From Actinomycetes bacterium (GTDB lineage Bacteria; Actinomycetota; CALGFH01): a DNA stretch of 64,000 nt. The DNA lies in the NCBI GenBank assembly GCA_036000965.1, contig DASYUT010000180.1:1-64000 (forward strand), in the 5' to 3' direction. Of this stretch, positions 3,205 through 46,015 are shown one piece after another (positions within the stretch are counted from its first letter, which is position 1; each line of letters starts with the position of its first letter). The translations under genes were made by a program, and so were the position numbers. Under the pieces are notes generated by a model. The model ran no database searches. It was not told the origin of the DNA and saw only the letters and a program-made list of their open reading frames with translations.

Positions 3205-3930
3205 TCACCCCGGACCGGACGGCGTGTGCAGGTGGTCGGTGCGCCTGGCCGCGCGCTCGCCCTCCACGGCAGCCCGGAACAGAAACAACCCGAGCACCAC
3301 CTGGAGGAGGTAGCGGGGCGAGTGGTCGAGCAGCATGGCCACGCCGCCGCCCGCGACGAGCAGGACGGCCAGGCCGCGGCCGAGCCAGGCGGTGATCCGG
3401 GTGGCGAGGACCCGGCGGCCGGTCAGCTTCCAGACCAGCGCCCTGGCCAGCCGGCCGCCGTCCAGGGGGAAGCCGGGGAGCAGGTTGAACACGGCCAGCA
3501 CCAGGTTGCCGGCGCCGAGGAACCATGCGAGCTGCGCCACCCAGCCCGTGGCGAGCTGGCTGGTGAGCGCGAACAGCCCGGCCAGCACGACCGAGGCGAG
3601 CGGGCCGGCCATGGCCATGAGCACCTCGCCGCCGGGGCCGCCGGGCTCGCTGACGATGCGGGCCGCGCCGCCGAACACGTAGAGGGTGACCTCGGCGGTG
3701 GGCACCCCGAGGGCGCGGGCGACCAGGGCGTGGCACAGCTCGTGGGTCAGCACCGAGGCGAAGAAGGCGAGGCTGAAGCCGAGCGAGAGCGCGAGCGCGC
3801 CGGCCCCGGTGACCGTGGGCGCCCACACGTCGAGGGTGCCCGCGGTGAACACGAGCAGGCCGAGGAACCAGGTCAGGTCGAGACGGACCGGGACACCGAG
3901 CACCCGTCCGACGTCGAGCCCCCGCCCCAA
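3205..3930 (-). CDS. Site-2 protease, M50 family zinc metalloprotease
   Basis: A 241-residue intramembrane protease. The zinc motif HELCH is at residues 63-67, inside a hydrophobic helix, and the second conserved element, LLPGFPLDGGRLARAL, supplies the distal Asp ligand (DG) near residue 150. The N-terminus GRGLDVGRVLGVPVRLDLTWF matches the start of rhomboid-sized actinobacterial M50 proteins that lack CBS domains. No ATG or GTG fits; a TTG at 3928-3930 lies six bases after AAGGAG and gives the natural N-terminus. It could also be translated from further upstream, but that sequence looks non-coding. The family cleaves membrane-bound substrates such as anti-sigma factors; the target here is not evident from neighbours. 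Confidence 0.85.
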   Translation of the reverse strand: MGRGLDVGRVLGVPVRLDLTWFLGLLVFTAGTLDVWAPTVTGAGALALSLGFSLAFFASVLTHELCHALVARALGVPTAEVTLYVFGGAARIVSEPGGPGGEVLMAMAGPLASVVLAGLFALTSQLATGWVAQLAWFLGAGNLVLAVFNLLPGFPLDGGRLARALVWKLTGRRVLATRITAWLGRGLAVLLVAGGGVAMLLDHSPRYLLQVVLGLFLFRAAVEGERAARRTDHLHTPSGPG

Positions 3931-4114
3931 GCCGCGCTCCTTCGTCCGGGGTGCCTGCGCACCAGGCGTGTCACAGCACGTACGCGCTTGCCGCCGGCTT
4001 GGTTCCCGCCCCCAGCGGGGCACCGTCCGCGTCACGCAGCCTTCCCGCAGGGTAGCTGGCGGCGGGTCCCATGTCTGCCCCCTGCCGCTGCCCCCTGCCG
4101 CCAGCGGTGTGCCG

Positions 4115-5227
4115 CTACCGGTCGAGCAGCCCCATGCCGCGGGCCCAGGAGGTGGCGTACGTGTCGACCGAGGCCTTCTCGGCCTCCGGGCTGACGGTGA
4201 GGGGCTGCAGGCACTCGACCATGACCGCCACCTCGTCAGTGGTCTCCTTCTTGGCCGCCCCCTCGGCCGCGCCCGGCTGGGGCCCGTGGTGGACGCCGGC
4301 CGGGTGCAGGGTCGCCATCCCCTTGTCGATTCCCTTGCGACTGAAGAAATCACCGTCGTGGTAGAAGAGCAGCTCATCGTTGTCAATATTTGAATGGTAG
4401 AAGGGCACCCGCAGGGCGCCTGGCTCGGTCTCGAACGGGCGGGGCGCGAACGTGGCGACGTCGAACCCGCGGCAGCGGAAGGTGGTGTGCACGCTCGGCG
4501 GCAGGTGGTAGCGGGGGCTGACCACCGGCCGGAAGTCGGCCACGTTGAGCCGGTAGGGCGCCAGGTCGCCCTGCCAGCCGACCACGTTGAGCGGGTGGTG
4601 CGGGAAGGTGAAGGTGGTGACCTGGCTGCGGCGCCGCACCTTGACCCGGAACTCCCCCCGCTCGTCGTGCGGGTCGGGCTCGGGGGTCTCCAGCACGCCC
4701 GGGTCGAAGAGGGCGTGGTGGCCGAGCAGCCCCTTGTCGGGCAGGACGAACTCGTCGCCCTCGATGAGCAGGAAGAAGTTGTCGGTGGTCTCCGGGACGA
4801 CCCGGTGGGTGGTGCCTTTGGGCACGACGAGGTAGTCGCCGGGCCGGAAGCCGAGCGGGCCGTAGTCGGTCTCCAGCGTGCCCGTGCCCCGGTGGACGAA
4901 GTAGATGACGTCGCCGTCGGCGTCCCGGACGAAGAACGGCATCGGCGCGGCCCGGCGCGACACCAGGATGGCCAGGTCCTCGTTGGAGAGCACGACGAGC
5001 GGGTCGCCTTCGGGGTCGGTCTGGTCGGGCGGCGTCACCTGGTTCCAGTCGAAGGCCCAGGGCCGCAGCGGCCCCTCGACCTTGACCCAGGCGGTCGGCG
5101 GTGCGGTCCGGTACAGGTGCGAGGCCCGCCCGGTGAACGCCTGGCGGCCGTGCTCCTCCTCGTAGGTCCCGGCGGGCAGGTCGACGTGCGCCTGCCTGGT
5201 CACCCTCCCCTTCGACTGCGGGATCAT
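4115..5227 (-). CDS. Homogentisate 1,2-dioxygenase-like protein
   Basis: A 370-residue protein in the size range of actinobacterial HgmA-like dioxygenases. The N-terminus MIPQSKGRVTRQAHVDLP and the block LPDKGLLGHHALFDP are characteristic. The C-terminal cupin contains YHSNIDNDELLFYHDGDF and TLHPAGVHHGPQPG, which hold the His/Glu/His iron-binding positions of the family. Known members open the ring of homogentisate in Tyr/Phe catabolism; actinobacterial paralogues are often annotated this way without proof. ATG 5227 follows GAGGAGGGCGCG. No other Tyr-catabolism genes (hppD, fahA, maiA) are adjacent, which slightly weakens the specific substrate call. Confidence 0.75.
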   Translation of the reverse strand: MIPQSKGRVTRQAHVDLPAGTYEEEHGRQAFTGRASHLYRTAPPTAWVKVEGPLRPWAFDWNQVTPPDQTDPEGDPLVVLSNEDLAILVSRRAAPMPFFVRDADGDVIYFVHRGTGTLETDYGPLGFRPGDYLVVPKGTTHRVVPETTDNFFLLIEGDEFVLPDKGLLGHHALFDPGVLETPEPDPHDERGEFRVKVRRRSQVTTFTFPHHPLNVVGWQGDLAPYRLNVADFRPVVSPRYHLPPSVHTTFRCRGFDVATFAPRPFETEPGALRVPFYHSNIDNDELLFYHDGDFFSRKGIDKGMATLHPAGVHHGPQPGAAEGAAKKETTDEVAVMVECLQPLTVSPEAEKASVDTYATSWARGMGLLDR

Positions 5228-35200: not shown

Positions 35201-35385
35201 GGTGAGGGTCGTGGGGGGATGCGCCGGTCAGAGGGAGATGCGCCGGTCAGCCGCCGGTCGCCCGGGGGAATGCGCCGGTCAGCCGCTCGTCGCCAAGGCC
35301 AGCGCGTGACGTAGGCGAGCCAGCCGCGCGGGTGCGCGGGTTTGGTAGCATCGTCACGCTCCCCACTCACGCTCTCAGGAGAACG

Positions 35386-35823
35386 GTGACCCGGTTCCAG
35401 CGCCTCGCCGCCGCCACCACGGCGGCGACGTTCATCCTCATCGCCGTGGGGGGGCTGGTCCGGGCGACCGACTCGGGCCTCGGCTGCCCCGACTGGCCCC
35501 GCTGCTTCGGCAAGCTGGTGCCCCCGGCCGAGCTCCACGCCTGGATCGAACACTCCCACCGGCTGGTCGCGTCGGTGATCATCGTGCTGGTGACGGTCCT
35601 GGCGGTGGCCGCCTGGCGCACCGGCCAGGCCCGCAGCATCCGCTGGGCCGCCGTGGGCGCCGTGGCGCTGGTGCTCGGCCAGGCGCTGCTCGGCGCCATC
35701 GTGGTCTGGCGCAAGCTCGAGGCTGACTCGGTGACCCTGCACCTGGCCACCGCGCTCGCCTTGCTCGCCCTGCTCGAGTTCATCTCCTTCCGGTCCCGCT
35801 CCGGACGGGGCCGCCTCAGGTGA
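35386..35823 (+). pseudogene. ctaA: Heme A synthase, N-terminal half (frame-broken)
   Basis: This frame encodes the first four helices of CtaA/Cox15, which oxidises heme O to heme A for the oxidase. Visible are LVRATDSGLGCPDWPRCFG, with the family Cys pair (C34, C40), WIEHSHRLVASV, with the Glu and His of the heme site, and SVTLHLATALALLAL, with the next His. It stops at TGA 35821-35823 in the loop between helices 4 and 5. The other half continues in the next frame. One extra base in the G-rich stretch near 35803-35820 would explain the break; removing it joins both halves through a Ser/Gly/Arg linker. GTG 35386 follows AGGAGAACG. If the indel is real, heme A synthesis depends on frameshifting or on two assembled halves. 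Confidence 0.75.
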
Positions 35824-35878: not shown

Positions 35879-37207
35879 ATGGTCGGGGCCGGCTTGGTCT
35901 ACATGCAGATGCTCGTCGGGTCGACAGTGACCGGCCACGATGCCGGGCTGGCGTTCCCCGACTTCCCCCTCATGAACGGGCAGCTGGTCCCCGACCTGAC
36001 CCTGACCACGGCGAAGCTCCAGGTCTTGCACCGCGGCTTCGCCATGGTCGTCGGCGCGATCGTCGTCCTCATCTGGCTGCGGGCACGCAGGACCCAGTGG
36101 ATGCACCCGACCGTCACCCGGCTGGCCGGCTACGCGAGTGGGCTGGTGGCCGTGCAGATCGGGCTCGGGATCGCGAACGTGTGGGACCGGCTCTCGGCCC
36201 TGACCGTGGTGCCCCACCTGGCCGTCGGCAGCCTCCTCTGGGGCGTGATGTTCATGCTGGTGCTGCACGCCGACCGGTTCACCGGTGGCGGCAGGCGCGA
36301 CCCGGCCGAGTCTGAGCCGGCCCCGCGCCGCACCGCCAGGGAGGCGGCGGGTGCCTACTTCCTGCTCACCAAGCCGCGCATCATCGAGCTGCTGCTGGTG
36401 ACCACCGTCCCCACCATGTTCATCGCCGAGCGCGGGGTGCCGTCTCCCTGGCTGATCCTGGCGACCCTGGTCGGCGGCTCGCTGTCGGCCGCCAGCGCCA
36501 ACACGATCAACTGCTACCTCGACCGCGACATCGACCAGGTGATGGCGCGCACCGCGCGCCGGCCGCTGCCCACCCACCGGGTCGACCCGGCTGACGCGCT
36601 GCGCTTCGGTGTGGTGCTCGGCGTAGCCGGCTTCGTATGGCTGTGGGCCACGGTGAACCTGCTCAGCGCGGCCCTGGCCACCGCGGCGATCCTGTTCTAC
36701 GTGTTCGTCTACACGATCGGGCTGAAGCGGCGCTCGACCCAGAACATCGTCATCGGCGGGGCCGCCGGGGCGGTGCCCGTGCTGGTCGGCTGGTCGGCGG
36801 TGACCGGCACCATCGAGATCCCGGCGCTGGTGTTGTTCGCGATCATCTTCTACTGGACGCCGCCCCACTTCTGGGCGCTGTCGCTGAAGTACCGGGAGGA
36901 CTACGCGGCTGCCGGGGTGCCGATGCTGCCGGTCGTGCGCGGCCCCCGGGAGACCTCGCACCAGATCCTGTACTACACCCTGCTGCTGGTCGCAGTCACG
37001 CTGCTGCTCTACCCGGCCGGGCAGATGGGCACGATCTACCTGGTGGCCGCCCTGACCCTGGGCGGGGTGTTCGTGTGGCGCGCGGCCCAGCTCTGGCGCG
37101 ACGCGTCCGGGCAGCGGGCGATCCGGCTGTTCAGCTTCTCCAACCGCTACCTGGCGCTGCTGTTCGCGGCCATGGCGGTCGACGCGGTGGTGCGGGTCCG
37201 CGGCTGA
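35879..37207 (+). CDS. ctaB: Fusion of CtaA C-terminal half with heme O synthase CtaB
   Basis: A 442-residue frame with two parts. Residues 1-135 are helices 5-8 of heme A synthase: MLVGSTVTGHDAGLAFPDFP, LQVLHRGFAMVVG and VVPHLAVGSLLW contain the late conserved His residues. Residues 150-442 are a complete protoheme IX farnesyltransferase: AYFLLTKPRIIELLLVTTVP, NCYLDRDIDQVMARTARRPL (first Asp-rich prenyl-diphosphate site) and YWTPPHFWALSLKYREDYAA. The linker is Arg/Pro rich. Thus heme O and heme A synthases are joined in one polypeptide apart from the upstream frame break. ATG 35879 has no clear ribosome site, supporting read-through from upstream. The CtaB part should be functional. Confidence 0.85.
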   Translation: MVGAGLVYMQMLVGSTVTGHDAGLAFPDFPLMNGQLVPDLTLTTAKLQVLHRGFAMVVGAIVVLIWLRARRTQWMHPTVTRLAGYASGLVAVQIGLGIANVWDRLSALTVVPHLAVGSLLWGVMFMLVLHADRFTGGGRRDPAESEPAPRRTAREAAGAYFLLTKPRIIELLLVTTVPTMFIAERGVPSPWLILATLVGGSLSAASANTINCYLDRDIDQVMARTARRPLPTHRVDPADALRFGVVLGVAGFVWLWATVNLLSAALATAAILFYVFVYTIGLKRRSTQNIVIGGAAGAVPVLVGWSAVTGTIEIPALVLFAIIFYWTPPHFWALSLKYREDYAAAGVPMLPVVRGPRETSHQILYYTLLLVAVTLLLYPAGQMGTIYLVAALTLGGVFVWRAAQLWRDASGQRAIRLFSFSNRYLALLFAAMAVDAVVRVRG

Positions 37208-37467: not shown

Positions 37468-38508
37468 TCAGCCGGCCGGTCTGTGGCGCTCTCCCGCCAC
37501 CGGGCTCTGGTGGTCGGGCTGGGGCGGCGGGGGTCCGCCCGCGGCGGCCGCCGCGGCCCGCCGGGCCGCGCGCTGGGCGGCCAGCTCGGCGTCGACCCGG
37601 GCGGTCACCCGGTCCTCGTTGCGCATCCAGGCCGCGATCGCCAGCCCCGTGGCGACCAGCAGCAGCAGGTCGCCAGCGACCCACATGATCGCCCCGCCGA
37701 GGTGCTGGTCGTCCAGGGGGCTCGGCCCCCAGGTCCGCCCGCTGGCGTAGTGGGGGTAGAGGATGCGGCCGCTCGAGTAGAGGGCCAGGGCCAGGAACGT
37801 GTTCACCGGCCCTTGCATGAACACGTAGCCGACGCGCAGCGGATGGGGCATGCGCCAGCGGCTCGGGTCCAGGCCGATCGCCGGCCACCAGAACAGCACC
37901 GCGGCGACCAGGTAGAGCAGGTGCTCAGCCACGTGCACGGCATCGTTCTCCAGGGCCGCCTGGTAGATCCCTGAGAAGTGCGTCCCCCACATGACCGCCG
38001 CGAACCCCACCCAGGCGAGCAGCGGGTGGGTGAGCAGCCTGACCGGGGCCGAGTGCAGCACCCGCATCACCTTGCGGTGGCCGCGCCGCCCGACCGCCCG
38101 CACCAGCAGGCTGACCGGCGTGCCGAGCACCAGCAGGGGCGCGGCCACCATGGTGAGCAGCAGGTGCTGGACCATGTGGACCGAGAACAGCGTCCCGTCG
38201 TAGGTGGCGACCGGCGACAGCAGCGCGACCGCGAGCACGGCCAGCCCGGCCAGGAATGCGCCGGTGCGGGCCGGCCGCCACGGGTTGCGCGGATGCAGCT
38301 CGGCCACCCGGCGCACCCCGAGCAGGTAGAGCGCTGCCGAGCCGGCGAGCAGGGCGAGGAACAGCGGGTCGGCCTGCCAGGCGAGCAGCACTTCGGGGAA
38401 CCGGGGTTCGGGCTGCACCTGGTTGAGGGCGAGCGCTGGGGTGGGTAGGAGCACCAGGCCGGCGGCGAGCACGGCCGGGACGGCGCGGCGCAACGGGGAT
38501 GGGCGCAT
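37468..38508 (-). CDS. ctaG: Cytochrome c oxidase assembly protein, caa3-type CtaG
   Basis: A 346-residue polytopic protein of the caa3_CtaG family (Bacillus/actinobacterial type, not the Cox11 type), needed for copper insertion or stability of the oxidase. Seven or so hydrophobic helices are visible. The conserved His-bearing segments are present: LFSVHMVQHLLLTMVAAPLLVLGTP, HPLLAWVGFAAVMWGTHFSG, DAVHVAEHLLYLVAAVLFWW and the late DQHLGGAIMWVAGDL. ATG 38508 gives MRPSPLRRAVPAVLAAG, a signal-like first helix; the ribosome site is weak. It faces the ctaA-ctaB gene and is back to back with the cox genes through the septum gene. Confidence 0.88.
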   Translation of the reverse strand: MRPSPLRRAVPAVLAAGLVLLPTPALALNQVQPEPRFPEVLLAWQADPLFLALLAGSAALYLLGVRRVAELHPRNPWRPARTGAFLAGLAVLAVALLSPVATYDGTLFSVHMVQHLLLTMVAAPLLVLGTPVSLLVRAVGRRGHRKVMRVLHSAPVRLLTHPLLAWVGFAAVMWGTHFSGIYQAALENDAVHVAEHLLYLVAAVLFWWPAIGLDPSRWRMPHPLRVGYVFMQGPVNTFLALALYSSGRILYPHYASGRTWGPSPLDDQHLGGAIMWVAGDLLLLVATGLAIAAWMRNEDRVTARVDAELAAQRAARRAAAAAAGGPPPPQPDHQSPVAGERHRPAG

Positions 38509-38550
38509 GGCCCCATTTTCACGACGCCCAGCCGGGACAGCCACCCCCGC

Positions 38551-39835: not shown

Positions 39836-40903
39836 ATGCGACGCGCGCAGCACCGAGCCGGGCACCGGGCCAGGACCGCGGCACTGGTACTGGCCGGCAT
39901 CATGGTCCTGGCCGGTTGCGGGTCGTACCCGGGGGTCACCGAGCAGTCGAAGCACGTCTACAACCTCTACAACCTCCTGTTCGTGGTCGCCGCGATCATC
40001 TTCGTGCTGGTCGAGGGAGCGATCCTGTGGGCCGCGTTCCGCTACCGGCGCACCGACGACCAGCTCCCGCCCCAGTTCCACGGCAACAACATGCTCGAGA
40101 TCGCCTGGACGGTGGTCCCGCTGCTGATCGTGGCGACCCTGTTCTGGCTCTCCTGGCAGGTCCTTCAGAAGGTCGACGCCCAGTCCAAGAACCCCGACGT
40201 GACCGTCAACGTCACCGGGTTCCAGTGGCAGTGGCAGTTCACCTTCCAGGGCGAGAAGGTGCGCGTCGAGGAGGGCCAGCCGCCCCAGGACCTGACCCTC
40301 AGGGGCACCATCGCGCGGCCACCCACGATCTACCTCCCGGTCGGTCAGAAGATCCATTTCAACCTGCAGGCCAGGGACGTCATCCACGCCTTCTACATCC
40401 CCCAGTTCCTGTTCAAGCGCGACGCCATCCCGGGCCGCACCAACAGCTTCGAGGTCACCATCGACAAGCCGGGCAGCTACTCCGGGCAGTGCGCCCAGTT
40501 CTGCGGCCTGCAGCACAACGCCATGCACTTCACGGTCAAGGCGGTGTCCGTGGCCGAGTACCGGGACTGGATCGCCAAGTCGGTCAAGCAGGCGGAGAGC
40601 GGCTGCCCCAACGACCCCACCCCGGGCCAGATCGCGGCCAAGAACGTCGCCTTCGACAAGGACTGCCTGGCCGCCAAGGCCGGCCAGGCAGTCCAGCTCA
40701 AGTTCGACAACCAGGAGAACGTGCCCCACAACGTCGCCTTCTTCAAGGGTGGGAACGCCCAGGCGCCCAACGTGTTCCGGGGTCAGGTCTTCAACGGCCC
40801 CAAGACCGTCACCTACCAGGTTCCTGCACTCTCCAAGGGGAACTACTTCTATCATTGCGATGTCCACCCGACGGCGATGCAAGGCAAGCTCGTTGTCAAG
40901 TAG
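39836..40903 (+). CDS. coxB: Cytochrome c oxidase subunit II with extra C-terminal cupredoxin domain
   Basis: A 355-residue lipoprotein-like subunit. The signal ends in VLAGC with Cys28. Two membrane helices follow (NLLFVVAAIIFVLVEGAILW and EIAWTVVPLLIVATLFWL). The CuA domain has FQWQWQFTFQGE, RDVIHAFYIPQF and GQCAQFCGLQHNAM, giving the CxxxC, His and Met copper ligands. After about residue 255 a second copper-protein-like domain appears: AVQLKFDNQENVPHNVAFF and YFYHCDVHPTAMQGKLVV, with a His-Cys-His-Met type 1 set. This is where caa3 oxidases carry cytochrome c. ATG 39836 gives a normal lipoprotein signal; an upstream ATG at 39758 is possible. Confidence 0.92.
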   Translation: MRRAQHRAGHRARTAALVLAGIMVLAGCGSYPGVTEQSKHVYNLYNLLFVVAAIIFVLVEGAILWAAFRYRRTDDQLPPQFHGNNMLEIAWTVVPLLIVATLFWLSWQVLQKVDAQSKNPDVTVNVTGFQWQWQFTFQGEKVRVEEGQPPQDLTLRGTIARPPTIYLPVGQKIHFNLQARDVIHAFYIPQFLFKRDAIPGRTNSFEVTIDKPGSYSGQCAQFCGLQHNAMHFTVKAVSVAEYRDWIAKSVKQAESGCPNDPTPGQIAAKNVAFDKDCLAAKAGQAVQLKFDNQENVPHNVAFFKGGNAQAPNVFRGQVFNGPKTVTYQVPALSKGNYFYHCDVHPTAMQGKLVVK

Positions 40904-40938: not shown

Positions 40939-42615
40939 ATGGCCATCACTGAGGCGCGGCCGGAGGCAGGCCCTGCCGGCTCGTACGGGATCAGCCCGCA
41001 GCGCCACCCGATCATGGAGTGGCTGACCACCACCGACCACAAGAAGATCGGGATCATGTACCTGGTGAACTCGTTCTTCTGGTTCTCGGTGGCGGGCCTG
41101 CTGGCGGTGTTCATCCGCGTCGAGCTGGCCGAGCCGGGTACCCAGTACTTCGCCGAGCAGCAGTACAACGAGCTGTTCACCATGCACGGGACGACGATGA
41201 TCTTCCTGTTCGTCATCCCGATCCTGGCCGGCTTCGGGAACTACATCGTGCCGCTGCAGATCGGCGCCCTCGACATGGCGTTCCCGCGGGTCAACGCGCT
41301 GTCGTTCTGGATGCTGCCACTGGCCGGGATCATCCTGTTCTCCGGCTACCTCACCGGCGGGGCGGCCTGCGCCGGCTGGACCGAGTACCCGACCGTGTCG
41401 CTGCAGCCCTGCGGCACCGGCGTCGGCACCGACCTGTGGATCGTGGCGCTGCTGCTGATCGGCACCTCGTCGATCCTCGGGGGGGTCAACTTCCTCACCA
41501 CCATCTTCAACATGCGGGCGCCCGGCATGACGATGTTCCGGATGCCCCTGTTCACCTGGACGATGCTGGTCACCTCGCTGCTGGTGCTGCTCGCCACCCC
41601 GGTGATCGCCAGCGCGCTGGTGATGCTGCTGATCGACCGGAACCTCGGCGGGTCGTTCTTCGACCCGGCCAAGGGCGGCATCACGGTGCTGTGGCAGAAC
41701 GTCTTCTGGTTCTACTCCCACCCCGCCGTGTACGTGATGGTGCTGCCCGGCATGGGCATCATCTCCGAGGTCCTGCCCGTGTTCTCGCGCAAGCCGCTGT
41801 TCGGCTACAAGGCGTTCGTGTTCGCCACCGCCGGCATCGGCGCGCTCGGGTTCAGCGTCTGGGCCCACCACATGTTCACCACCGGCACGGTGCTGCTGCC
41901 GTTCTTCAGCATCATGACCTTCCTGATCGCGGTCCCCACCGGGGTGAAGTTCTTCAACTGGATCGCCACCCTGTGGAAGGGCAAGATCTGGTTCACGACC
42001 GCGAACCTGTTCGCGTTCGGGTTCCTCTCCATGTTCCTGATCGGCGGGATCGACGGCGTGTTCCTGGCCTCCCCGCCGGTCGACTTCGCCCTCCACGACA
42101 CCTACTGGGTGATCGCCCACATCCACTACGTGCTGTTCGGCGGCAGCGTGTTCGCCGTGTACGCGGGGATGTACTACTGGTTCCCCAAGTTCACCGGCAA
42201 GCGCCTGAACGAGGGCCTTGGGAAGCTGCACTTCTGGCTCCAGATGATCGGCTTCAACCTGACCTTCATGCCGATGCACGTGCTCGGCCTGCTCGGCATG
42301 CCCCGCCGCATCTCCGACTACATCCCCTTCACCGACTGGACCGGGCTGAACCAGCTCCAGACCGTCGGGTCCCTGCTGATCGCGGTCTCCACCGCGCCGT
42401 TCCTGGCCAACGTCTGGCTGACGCTGCGCCGCAAGGACCGCGACCCGGAGAACCCGTGGGACGCCAACACCCTCGAGTGGTGGACGACCTCGCCCCCGCC
42501 GGCCCACAACTTCGACAGCCTGCCCGAGATCCACTCCGAGCGGCCCCTGTTCGACGCCCAGCACGCCGACGAGCTGACCGTCCACGCCGACGCGACCACG
42601 ACTGGAGCACGCTGA
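40939..42615 (+). CDS. coxA: Cytochrome c oxidase subunit I, A2-type
   Basis: The 558-residue catalytic subunit with 12 or so helices. Heme and copper ligands are seen: H83 (MHGTTMIF), H261 (FYSHPAVYVMVLPGMG), H310/H311 (WAHHMFTTG), and H395 and H397 (WVIAHIHYVLFGG). K337 in AVPTGVKFFNW fits the K-channel. Helix VI has Y259-S260 and Ala instead of the GHPEVY Glu, the hallmark of A2-type heme-copper oxidases such as those of Rhodothermus and Thermus caa3. ATG 40939 follows AAGGAGTTCCG. The stop overlaps coxC (TGATG). It is 35 bp after coxB. Confidence 0.96.
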   Translation: MAITEARPEAGPAGSYGISPQRHPIMEWLTTTDHKKIGIMYLVNSFFWFSVAGLLAVFIRVELAEPGTQYFAEQQYNELFTMHGTTMIFLFVIPILAGFGNYIVPLQIGALDMAFPRVNALSFWMLPLAGIILFSGYLTGGAACAGWTEYPTVSLQPCGTGVGTDLWIVALLLIGTSSILGGVNFLTTIFNMRAPGMTMFRMPLFTWTMLVTSLLVLLATPVIASALVMLLIDRNLGGSFFDPAKGGITVLWQNVFWFYSHPAVYVMVLPGMGIISEVLPVFSRKPLFGYKAFVFATAGIGALGFSVWAHHMFTTGTVLLPFFSIMTFLIAVPTGVKFFNWIATLWKGKIWFTTANLFAFGFLSMFLIGGIDGVFLASPPVDFALHDTYWVIAHIHYVLFGGSVFAVYAGMYYWFPKFTGKRLNEGLGKLHFWLQMIGFNLTFMPMHVLGLLGMPRRISDYIPFTDWTGLNQLQTVGSLLIAVSTAPFLANVWLTLRRKDRDPENPWDANTLEWWTTSPPPAHNFDSLPEIHSERPLFDAQHADELTVHADATTTGAR

Positions 42616-43232
42616 TGGCCGTAGCCGACGCCGCAGTCCGCGAGACCCCGACCGGTCCCGGCCACGAGCGCACCGGCGGGATCAGCTCCTCCCTGCTCGG
42701 TATGGTGCTGTTCATCGCCTCCGAGGTCATGTTCTTCGGCGGCCTGTTCGGGGCCTACTTCACCCTCCGGACCGCGGCGCCCGAGTGGCCGCCGCCCGGC
42801 ACCCCCGAGCTGAACAAGCTGTACGCGCTCGGGCTGACCGCGGTACTGGTCTCCTCGAGCGTCACGATGCAGCTCGGCGTGTTCGCCATCCGCAGGAACG
42901 ACCAGAAGTGGCTGGTCCGCTGGCTGGCCATCACCCTGGTCCTCGGCGCCCTCTTCCTCATGGGCCAGGCCAACGAGTACCACATCCTGTTCACGGAGGG
43001 CACGACACTGCGCAGCGGCGTGTTCGGCTCCACCTTCTTCACCCTCACCGGGTTCCACGGGGCGCACGTGTTCGGCGGCGCCGCGTTCATCCTCATCGTG
43101 CTGCTGCGGGCCCGCTCGGGCCAGTTCACCGCCCGGTACCACGACACCGTCGAGATGGCCTCCTACTACTGGCACTTCGTCGACGTCGTGTGGCTCGGCC
43201 TGGTCACCACCATCTACCTTCTGAGCCAGTAG
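42615..43232 (+). CDS. coxC: Cytochrome c oxidase subunit III
   Basis: A 205-residue subunit with five helices, lacking the first two of the seven-helix form, as common in actinobacteria and caa3 oxidases. Conserved blocks are LGMVLFIASEVMFFGGLFGAYF (with the helix III Glu), GVFGSTFFTLTGFHGAHVFGG and EMASYYWHFVDVVWLGLVTTIY. ATG 42615 overlaps the coxA stop, so translation is coupled. The stop is inside a repeated segment that continues to the start of the next gene. Confidence 0.95.
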   Translation: MAVADAAVRETPTGPGHERTGGISSSLLGMVLFIASEVMFFGGLFGAYFTLRTAAPEWPPPGTPELNKLYALGLTAVLVSSSVTMQLGVFAIRRNDQKWLVRWLAITLVLGALFLMGQANEYHILFTEGTTLRSGVFGSTFFTLTGFHGAHVFGGAAFILIVLLRARSGQFTARYHDTVEMASYYWHFVDVVWLGLVTTIYLLSQ

Positions 43233-43305: not shown

Positions 43306-44166
43306 GTGAACGCAGCCGCGCGCCTGTTCTTCCTCATGGGGACGTTCGGCGTCACCGCCGGGCTCATCTACTACTTCGCCTGGCAACACCCTGAGCCAGC
43401 CGGGTTCGCCCTGCTCATGGCGTTCTTCATCGCCTGCCTGTTCATCGGTGCGCTGCTGTGGACGGCCAGCCCGGCCAACCGGCGGCGGGTCCCGGCGCCC
43501 GACACCGGGCTGCCCGGGTCGGCCAGCCAGGAGCGCGGCGCGGCCGACGAGCACGGGTTCATCCACCACATGCCGCCCACCATCGCCCCGGCGGTCTACG
43601 CGCTGGCCGCCGCCGTCATCCTGGCCGCGGTGGTGTACCGGGACAAGGTGAAGCTGCTCGGCCTGTGGGGTGTCGCCCTGGGGCTGCTGCTGTTCCTGGC
43701 CGCCACCGCGCTGTGGTACCGGGCGATCGCGGTCGACACCCGGGCCAAGCTCCACGGCGGCCCCCACGGCGCCGAGCGCGGCGTGGCGGTCCCGCCCGGC
43801 GGCGCCCCGGCCGTCCCCACCGGGCCGCCCGGGCCGGCCAACTACTTCGAGCAGGTCCGGGAGGCGTTCGAGGTCGGCGACCCGGACTGGGCGGCCGACG
43901 CCTACGCCCCCGACGCCGTCTACTACGAGCCGGCCAACCCGCCCCACGAGGGGCGCGACGCCATCCGCGCCTACCTCAACGACCTGCTCAAGGGACACCC
44001 GGGCCTGCGCTACGAGGTCAAGCGCATGGGCGCCGACGACCACACCGCGATCGTCGAGTGGACCTGGTCGTTCCGGCGCGACGGCCGGCGCGTCACCGAC
44101 CAGCCCGGGGTCAGCGTCATCCAGGTCGGCGAGCACGGCATCACCTACCACCGCGACTATCTCTAG
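43306..44166 (+). CDS. CtaF-like oxidase subunit IV fused to a SnoaL-like domain
   Basis: A 286-residue protein in two parts. Residues 1-150 have four hydrophobic segments ([76 protein letters not shown]), matching actinobacterial CtaF, the small subunit IV of the aa3 oxidase. After a Gly/Pro-rich linker, residues 178-286 are a SnoaL/NTF2-like alpha+beta barrel: [39 protein letters not shown] and [21 protein letters not shown] know of no reason for this domain in an oxidase subunit. The two parts share one uninterrupted frame. GTG 43306 has a modest GCGAGGACC upstream. Confidence 0.75.
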
Positions 44167-44173
44167 CCAGCCG

Positions 44174-44818
44174 GTGGCCGTGGCCCCGCCGCCCGAGCCC
44201 GACGGCACCGCCCCGCCGAAGCGGTGGCGGTGGGGACCGCCCAGGCGGCCCGCGCTCCTGGCGGCCGTCCTGCTGCTCCCGGTCGGCGCCGGGTTCGCGG
44301 TCCTCGCCCTGGAGCGGCGGCCGGACCCGTCCACCGGTGCCGCGGCCACCCGCCTCTCCCCCGTCCCCACCGTGCAGACCTACCCTGCCGGGACGAACGC
44401 GCCCGACCTGCGGCTCACCACGCTGGACGGCGGCACCGTGCGCCTGGCCGCGCTCAAGGGCCGGCCGGTCGTGGTCAACTTCTGGGCCTCCTGGTGCAAG
44501 CCCTGCGCCAGGGAGCTCCCGCTGCTCGCCGACGCCCGGGCCGCCCACCGCGCGGACGGGCTCGCGCTCGTCGGCGTGCTCGCGGCCAGCGACCGGCCCG
44601 GCGCGGCCCGCCGGTTCGCCGCCCGCCACGGCGCCACCTGGCCGACCGGCCTCGATCCCGGCCCCGGCCCGTCCGGCCCGACCATGACCGCCTACGGCGT
44701 CACCGGACTACCGGAGACGTTCTTCGTGCGCCGCGACGGCACCCTCGCCTCCCGCCAGCTCGGGGAGCTCACCCAGGCCAGCCTCGCCCGCCAGCTCGCT
44801 GCGATCCTCCCCCCGTAG
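44174..44818 (+). CDS. TlpA/ResA-like membrane-anchored thioredoxin
   Basis: A 214-residue protein with one N-terminal membrane helix (residues 26-46, [20 protein letters not shown]) and an extracytoplasmic thioredoxin-like domain. [15 protein letters not shown] contains the redox pair C108/C111, and [15 protein letters not shown] has the cis-Pro loop. This group (ResA/TlpA/CcmG) reduces apocytochrome or CuA cysteines; next to coxB a role in CuA or cytochrome maturation is likely. The start is uncertain between GTG 44174 and GTG 44180; both lie right after the previous stop, implying coupled translation. Confidence 0.85.
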
Positions 44819-44851: not shown

Positions 44852-46015
44852 TCACGGCCCGGCCGGGGACCTCACCGTGACCTGCACCCGCTGGGGGTGG
44901 TTGCCGGCATAGCCGCCCAGATTCCACGGAGGCTCGGCCGGCTGCTCCCGACCGGTCGCATCCGCGGCTCGGCAGCACAGCTCGTAGTCGCCCGGCGCCG
45001 CCGGCTCCCAGCGGTAGGACCACCCCTGCCAGGCATGGGGCGCGGGCGGCGCGGCCAGCTCGGCCGGGTCCCAGGTGCGCCCGCCGTCGACGCTGACCTC
45101 CACCCGCACCACCGGACCCCAGCCCGACCAGGCCCGGCCCTCCAGCCGGCACGGCCCAGGCTCGAGGAAGCGCCGCCGGGTCAGGAAGTCCGGGATGCCC
45201 GGCGGCGCCATGAGCGACCGGGGCGCGATCCGGGTGACCGGCTCGCCCCCGTCGTCGGCGGCGCGGCGGTACCGGTAGGCACGGACCTGCTGGTAGCCGA
45301 GGAACGGCTCGGCGCTGACCGTGACCCGCGACAGCCACTTCACGCTCGTCATGCCATACCAGCCGGGGACCAGCAGGCGCAGCGGGAAGCCGTGCTGAGG
45401 TGGCAGCGGCTGCCCGTTGACGGCCCAGGCGAGCAGCACGTCGGCGCGCCGCGCCTCGGCGAGCGGGAGGCTGCGCTCGTAATGCTGCTCGACCCCGCCC
45501 TCCACCCCCCGGTCGAGCCCGCTGAACACCACCTCGACCGCGTCGTCGGCCACACCGGCCTGCTCCAGCAGCGGCCACAGCGGCGTCCCGGTCCACTCCG
45601 CCGTTCCCACCGCCTCCAGCAGCCACGGCTGGCTCACCGCACGGGGCGACAACCGGGCCCGGCCGTTGCCGGCGCACTCCATCGTCACCAGGCGGGTCAC
45701 CGCTTGGCGGGCCCGGAGCTCGTCGAGGGTGAACGAGCGGGCCCGGCTCACCCTCCCGCCCAGCTCGAGCCGCCACGTGGCCGGGTCGACCACCGGTACG
45801 TCGTAGTGGACCAGCAGGTAGTGCAGCCCGACCGGGGTCACCGGCCAGCGCAGCGCCTCCAGCGGCATGCCGTGGTTACGGGTCGCGAGCTGCAGCTCCT
45901 CGCGGGTGATCTGCTCGGAGGCGGTCACGCCAGGGGGCAGCTCCCCGGTTGCCGGACGGTCCATGCCGACCTCCCCTCGCGCGGGGGCGACGTCCTCGAT
46001 GGCCTGGTCGCTCAC
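44852..46015 (-). CDS. Molybdopterin-dependent oxidoreductase, sulfite oxidase fold
   Basis: A 387-residue cytosolic enzyme without a signal peptide. VTRLVTMECAGNGRARLSP contains the Mo-ligating Cys (C114) and the cofactor Arg of the sulfite oxidase family. Later, HGFPLRLLVPGWYGMTSVKWLSRV and the dimerisation domain (VEVSVDGGRTWDPAEL, YELCCRAADATGREQP) match. No heme or extra domain is attached. Actinobacterial relatives are generally uncharacterised; sulfite or N-/S-oxide chemistry is possible. GTG 46015 follows GACGGAGTGACAC. It is divergent from korA across a 305-bp gap. Confidence 0.88.
   Translation of the reverse strand: MSDQAIEDVAPARGEVGMDRPATGELPPGVTASEQITREELQLATRNHGMPLEALRWPVTPVGLHYLLVHYDVPVVDPATWRLELGGRVSRARSFTLDELRARQAVTRLVTMECAGNGRARLSPRAVSQPWLLEAVGTAEWTGTPLWPLLEQAGVADDAVEVVFSGLDRGVEGGVEQHYERSLPLAEARRADVLLAWAVNGQPLPPQHGFPLRLLVPGWYGMTSVKWLSRVTVSAEPFLGYQQVRAYRYRRAADDGGEPVTRIAPRSLMAPPGIPDFLTRRRFLEPGPCRLEGRAWSGWGPVVRVEVSVDGGRTWDPAELAAPPAPHAWQGWSYRWEPAAPGDYELCCRAADATGREQPAEPPWNLGGYAGNHPQRVQVTVRSPAGP

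Follow-up and report, generated by a model that had tools for sequence, protein, structure and literature searches.

In caa3 oxidases, for example that of Thermus, a cytochrome c is bound covalently at the C-terminus of subunit II, as the accessible part of the source describes (PMC6696091). In haloarchaeal ba3 oxidases, halocyanin is fused to subunit IIa (CbaD), and the sections of the two reports available to us describe it as the redox partner of the oxidase (PMC3128077, PMC8305020). According to the accessible text on the rus operon of Acidithiobacillus, a cupredoxin is encoded there by a gene of its own, ahead of coxB (PMC10654088, PMC8239418). The closest published case that we found is the haloarchaeal fusion of halocyanin to subunit IIa. 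An A-type oxidase with a blue-copper component is also reportedly present in the SoxM supercomplex, where sulfocyanin is said to be a separate subunit and not a fused one. In the open-licence literature, outside which most subscription journals lie, we found no description of a cupredoxin on the C-terminus of CoxB; one may still be published, and the architecture is quite likely to be listed in automatic annotation.

The gene described here lies in the window, that is, the whole stretch of DNA that was analysed (64,000 nucleotides; contig C180 of genome G000). An open reading frame on the forward strand, at positions 39836–40903, encodes a CoxB (CtaC) of 355 amino acids with a lipobox-like LAGC motif, whose cysteine, C28, is invariant in all nine full-length fusions that were aligned. 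All features within this gene are on the same strand. Pfam identified a two-helix membrane anchor at residues 36–108 (COX2_TM; 39941–40159) and a CuA domain at residues 123–237 (COX2, E 2.5e-20; 40202–40546), both above the curated cut-offs. In the full-length predicted model, the helices are found at residues 36–73 and 85–114. The protein scored above the cut-off for TIGR02866 (CoxB), although its score with NF050117, 239.8 bits, was slightly below the cut-off of 250. It is an A-type CoxB/CtaC, with the two transmembrane helices and the CuA ligand set of this subunit, and the genes for subunits I and III adjoin it.

Behind the CuA domain, a linker and the start of the next domain (residues 257–277, with C257 and C277; 40604–40666) form a low-confidence region of the model. 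A type 1 cupredoxin domain occupies residues 259–355 (40610–40900), as indicated by Pfam, sequence relatives, predicted fold and alignment. Both Cupredoxin_1 (residues 259–354, E 1.6e-18) and Copper-bind (residues 268–355, E 2.5e-8) matched above their curated cut-offs. When the tail was excised and searched alone, it still matched Cupredoxin_1 with an E-value of 8.6e-12, and its top solved relative by sequence was auracyanin A (E 8.9e-11), followed by amicyanin and plastocyanin. With these E-values for the tail alone, a chance resemblance to cupredoxins is excluded. The original prediction, which placed a second copper-site pattern after a normal CuA domain in this open reading frame, was right in both coordinates and motif: the CuA domain is complete and the type 1 ligands are present. 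The window open reading frame is a lipoprotein-type CoxB with a real C-terminal cupredoxin domain.

The type 1 ligands are H298 (codon at 40727–40729), C341 (40856–40858), H344 (40865–40867) and M348 (40877–40879). All four are invariant in the nine full-length fusions and in all 15 aligned tails, and the CuA ligands H184, C219, C223, H227 and M230 are each likewise invariant in 9/9 full-length fusions. Conservation of the copper ligands in homologues had been named beforehand, along with the predicted fold, as a point on which the cupredoxin assignment should stand or fall. The complete set of residues invariant in the 15 tails is A268, N292, H298, G321, L332, Y337, C341, H344, M348, G350 and V354. 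The proposed His-Cys-His-Met spacing of type 1 copper proteins was borne out by the alignment: the window protein has three residues between the second histidine and the methionine (CDVHPTAM), intermediate between amicyanin (HPFM, two residues) and plastocyanin (HQGAGM, four residues). This loop varies among the tails between two, three and four residues, which is the amicyanin–plastocyanin range.

Both C257 and C277 are present in all 12 actinobacterial tails, and neither is found in the three Chloroflexota tails; in the alignment row of L013 there is a gap in the first cysteine column, with the cysteine sitting beside it. From this co-occurrence in the sequences, a C257–C277 disulfide may be guessed at as a possibility. 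The dN/dS of the tail was 0.29–0.48 in four pairs, within the range of the core (0.14–0.80); these are simple Nei-Gojobori counts on GC-rich DNA and are to be read only as below 1. The tail is under purifying selection. A profile of the tails was also compared with the other cupredoxins of these loci. Every tail outscored every non-CoxB cupredoxin of the loci compared, the profile having been built from the same tails. The nearest non-CoxB domains were the C-terminal cupredoxins of membrane proteins encoded beside oxidase genes (L041, L042, L157 and L158). Three such multi-helix membrane proteins beside oxidase genes (L041 11548–12783, L157 5421–6449 and L158 8341–9369) end in one or two cupredoxin domains with type 1 motifs.

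The full-length model had a pLDDT of 81 and a pTM of 0.69; the CuA half was clear, and residues 257–277 had a pLDDT below 50. It matched subunit II chains of aa3 oxidases, such as Paracoccus 1ar1_B (Z 21.1, rmsd 2.6, 219 residues), and 2yev_B, subunit II of the Thermus caa3 oxidase, was also among the structural matches. In this search the CuA half outweighed the tail, for which a separate prediction and fold search were therefore made, using residues 255–355 alone and an alignment of five rows. The result was an eight-strand beta domain (pLDDT 81.4, pTM 0.75). Its top Foldseek match was auracyanin A (2aan, E 1.2e-7), and in VIA it matched the auracyanins 6kol (Z 12.3, rmsd 1.9, 95 residues) and 2aan (Z 11.7), with many azurins ranking below them (Z about 10–11). 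The predicted fold of the tail is thus the Greek-key beta fold of cupredoxins, with auracyanin nearest, in agreement with what had been expected for residues 255–355. The auracyanins of Chloroflexus and Roseiflexus (2aan, 6kol) are its nearest relatives in both fold and sequence, but they stand alone, and auracyanin A has the loop C-x4-H-x3-M where the tail has C-x2-H-x3-M.

The fused coxB is surrounded by a complete set of oxidase genes and assembly genes, according to Pfam. On the forward strand, it is followed by coxA for subunit I (40939–42615; 558 amino acids; COX1, E 8.6e-163), which carries FYSHPAVY instead of FFGHPEVY, and by coxC for subunit III (42615–43232; COX3, E 1.8e-36). The next open reading frame on this strand (43306–44166) joins a ctaF-like subunit IV part, for which the Cyt_c_ox_IV match was below the cut-off, to a SnoaL_2/NTF2-like domain (E 2.4e-18); the corresponding contigs of G001 and G002 end earlier. 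A TlpA/ResA-like thioredoxin-fold protein (Redoxin, AhpC-TSA) is encoded at 44153–44818, also forward, with a tentative start codon. Directly downstream of the cluster, on the reverse strand, lies a sulfite-oxidase-like molybdenum gene (44852–46015; Oxidored_molyb and Mo-co_dimer). Upstream of coxB are the genes for heme O/A synthesis on the forward strand, namely the first half of ctaA (35332–35823) and its second half fused to ctaB (35879–37207), and, on the reverse strand, ctaG for a caa3-type oxidase assembly factor (37468–38544; Caa3_CtaG, E 9.9e-76). The ctaA gene is split over two frames in the window. In G001 and G002, both parts are in a single frame, so the window copy is frameshifted at about 35.80–35.88 kb; the frameshift may be either real or an assembly error.

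Among the 60 relatives sampled, the fusion was found in all three genomes of the window's family (the window genome G000, G001 and G002). The G001 and G002 proteins are 59–60% identical to the window CoxB over nearly the full length, and coxA follows directly 3' in both. A CoxB match was obtained in 201 of 396 evenly drawn Actinomycetota genomes, and at least 14 of the 396 had the fusion, in 13 of them in a single frame and in one, G094, split over two contigs; this count covers the matches listed, with up to five candidates scored per genome, and is a lower bound. Among the matches listed, the actinobacterial fusions belong to four family codes (f1, f2, f8 and f47). One scan of named genomes also revealed three Chloroflexota loci with the fusion (L040–L042), at 42–43% identity. 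The search for the fusion in other Actinomycetota was thus successful in several families, and it extended to a second phylum. No fusion was seen on plasmids by tblastn, where 519 records matched and none covered at least 80% of the query in one place. Assembly artefact or contamination as the source of the fusion was rejected, as it is common to the family members and to a second phylum. At three of the second-group loci described below, the gene immediately upstream of the fused coxB encodes a further protein with a cupredoxin-like end (L154 5961–6653, L155 7613–8209 and L157 1206–1874); by eye, these proteins are apparently without the Cys-His-Met copper motif.

Among the described systems, the caa3 oxidases share this architecture. 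In both, subunit II of an A-type oxidase has a one-electron carrier covalently bound behind its CuA domain, and both occur in the same phylum. Sequence comparison showed that the same C-terminal slot holds a CxxCH domain in CoxB of other Actinomycetota, and the window CoxB is without CxxCH, which agrees with the earlier claim that the tail sits where caa3 oxidases have their cytochrome c. A misread cytochrome c was rejected as an identity of the tail, as this motif is absent. The two differ in the cofactor, heme c in caa3 and type 1 copper here, and their CoxB cores group apart. With the haloarchaeal halocyanin-CbaD proteins, the fusion shares a blue-copper protein covalently bound to an oxidase subunit; as far as the available sections describe them, those oxidases are archaeal and B-type with halocyanin N-terminal to the IIa helix, whereas the present oxidase is aa3-like and carries the domain C-terminally on its CuA subunit. 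AcoP/Cup and rusticyanin of Acidithiobacillus are likewise cupredoxins that serve an aa3 oxidase and are encoded beside coxB, but in the accessible parts of the sources they appear as separate proteins with no fusion.

To place the fusions among other subunits II, a tree of 66 CoxB cores was calculated, with identical cores collapsed. All 19 cores with a C-terminal cytochrome c fell on one side of a single branch (support 81). The cupredoxin-tailed cores formed two groups, one with the window and the Chloroflexota proteins (support 84) and a second, actinobacterial one (support 100), both on the side that includes most of the tail-less CtaC; L164 is tagged 'none' in this tree because its contig ends within the gene. 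One further cupredoxin-tailed row, L162, which has a long branch, was found on the opposite side from both groups. A single clade of the 15 fused rows was not rejected by the AU test (p 0.474), in which L162 was left out for its long branch and L164 was scored as fused.

The subunits I encoded next to the fusion are of two types, YSHPAVY and GHPEVY. FYSHPAVY, which we take to be the A2-type signature, is found in the window, in G002 (L152) and in L040–L042, L162 and L163. FFGHPEVY, presumably the A1-type signature, is found in the second group wherever the motif is readable (L154, L156, L158, L159, L161 and L165). In L039, L155, L157, L160 and L164, the contig ends before this part of coxA.

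We consider it most likely that the tail is a tethered blue-copper one-electron relay that feeds CuA in an aa3-like oxidase. This reading is supported by the cupredoxin match and fold, the invariant ligands, the purifying selection, the position in the caa3 slot, the oxidase gene set and the recurrence of the fusion. The tethered type 1 copper would be reduced by a donor, either the bc-type complex itself or a small cupredoxin bound to the membrane. The domain, on a flexible linker after the CuA domain, would then swing or dock onto the CuA face, and the electron would pass from type 1 copper via CuA and heme a to heme a3/CuB and finally to O2. That the tail feeds CuA as the cytochrome c of caa3 does had been part of the original prediction and is the best-supported function; we infer the electron-transfer step, and with it copper loading, redox potential, CuA docking, which way the electrons move and which donor supplies them. 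As donor, we would favour a bc-type complex that works via a cupredoxin. The genome also encodes a cupredoxin close to a Rieske/cytochrome b cluster, so a donor for such a relay would be at hand.

Matches to cytochrome b were found in G000 on contigs C69, C350, C115 and C251, and c-type cytochrome matches (two Pfam families) on C69, C350 and C251, all of them cytochrome b contigs. Neither cytochrome b nor a c-type cytochrome was matched on the window contig, C180 (64 kb window), and no free small cytochrome c was found in G000 among the matches to two Pfam families. Matches to COX1 were obtained in the window, on C69 and, as a short one, on C299. Contig C69 encodes a tail-less CtaC and CoxA along with a diheme c-type protein, a Rieske protein and cytochrome b, an arrangement that we take to be that of the actinobacterial bcc:aa3 supercomplex. 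In this type, CtaC has no tail and is encoded together with the diheme, QcrC-type bc complex that serves the oxidase, whereas the window CoxB has the tail and no bc complex nearby. On C299 (L149, about 3527–4381), the short COX1 match and a short CuA match point to a third oxidase-like locus, either diverged or fragmentary.

The same genome has 23 Cupredoxin_1 matches. On C350 (L143, 2826–7252), genes for a Rieske protein, cytochrome b, a GltD/ferredoxin-like protein and a lipoprotein-like cupredoxin of 170 amino acids stand in a row, and this cupredoxin is a candidate for an anchored donor to the oxidase. Two other proteins, of 530 and 471 amino acids (L146 and L147, on C186 and C339), have about three cupredoxin domains each. 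Because the cupredoxins are many, yet c-type cytochromes occur in the bc clusters and a bcc complex with a tail-less aa3 oxidase on C69, the oxidase with the cupredoxin tail seems to form one branch of a mixed chain, and not of a purely copper-based one. The heme c subunits in the bc-type clusters also mean that the donor may be a cytochrome, which makes the label 'copper chain' too strong. The idea of an electron chain with a copper carrier thus stands as far as the number of cupredoxins and the one beside the Rieske and cytochrome b genes are concerned, but not as a description of the whole chain.

No bc complex lies within the 64 kb of the window, and the sulfite-oxidase-like molybdenum gene is situated just downstream of the oxidase genes. 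In iron oxidisers, moreover, the accessible part of one report places a separate cupredoxin gene directly upstream of coxB (PMC10654088). These observations would fit a tail that serves as a docking or relay domain for electrons that come straight from periplasmic dehydrogenases or an external source (for instance sulfite, Fe(II) or another substrate), with no need of a bc complex. We regard such a function as unlikely: the molybdenum gene lies on the reverse strand, its product has no obvious signal peptide by eye, and there are four cytochrome b matches elsewhere in the genome.

It is considerably less probable that the tail stores copper or loads CuA or CuB as a metallochaperone instead of relaying electrons. 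Genes for CtaG and a TlpA-like protein are nearby, the copper chaperone CupA (4f2e) appeared in the VIA list for the tail model (Z 10.4), and PCuAC-type chaperones share a cupredoxin-like fold, as the available part of the source states (PMC9145763). However, the full His-Cys-His-Met set is present in every one of the 15 tails, its ligands H298, C341, H344 and M348 do not have the HX10MX21HXM spacing given for PCuAC in the same accessible text (PMC9145763), and the best matches in both sequence and structure are auracyanins. A domain without a job, arising from an accidental fusion or as an assembly artefact, is hardly credible, and its artefact version is refuted: the genome is a draft (358 contigs, 4.19% contamination) and the neighbouring ctaA is frameshifted, but the fusion recurs in G001 and G002, where coxA again follows it immediately, as well as in other actinobacterial families and in Chloroflexota, and the dN/dS of the tail is well below 1.

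Taking the tail as a tethered relay to CuA, we put forward a broader proposal only tentatively, as one that may well turn out to be wrong. The tethered donor may have been swapped from heme to copper more than once in bacterial A-type oxidases, with both types of subunit I. The resulting branch would be fed via type 1 copper only, from a bc-type complex to a membrane cupredoxin, the tethered cupredoxin and CuA; apart from the bc complex itself, cytochrome c would take no part between quinol and oxygen.

If the tail is such a relay, the fused donor of the caa3 type would be a replaceable module, heme or copper, within one phylum. The fusion would also be a compact, testable system for electron transfer from type 1 copper to CuA in a single polypeptide. 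In our judgement, the electron carriers of uncultured Actinomycetota and Chloroflexota have mostly been guessed from homology to cytochrome c. The fusion suggests that one respiratory branch of these bacteria uses copper as its carrier, and that copper can take the place of cytochrome c at this step of respiration.
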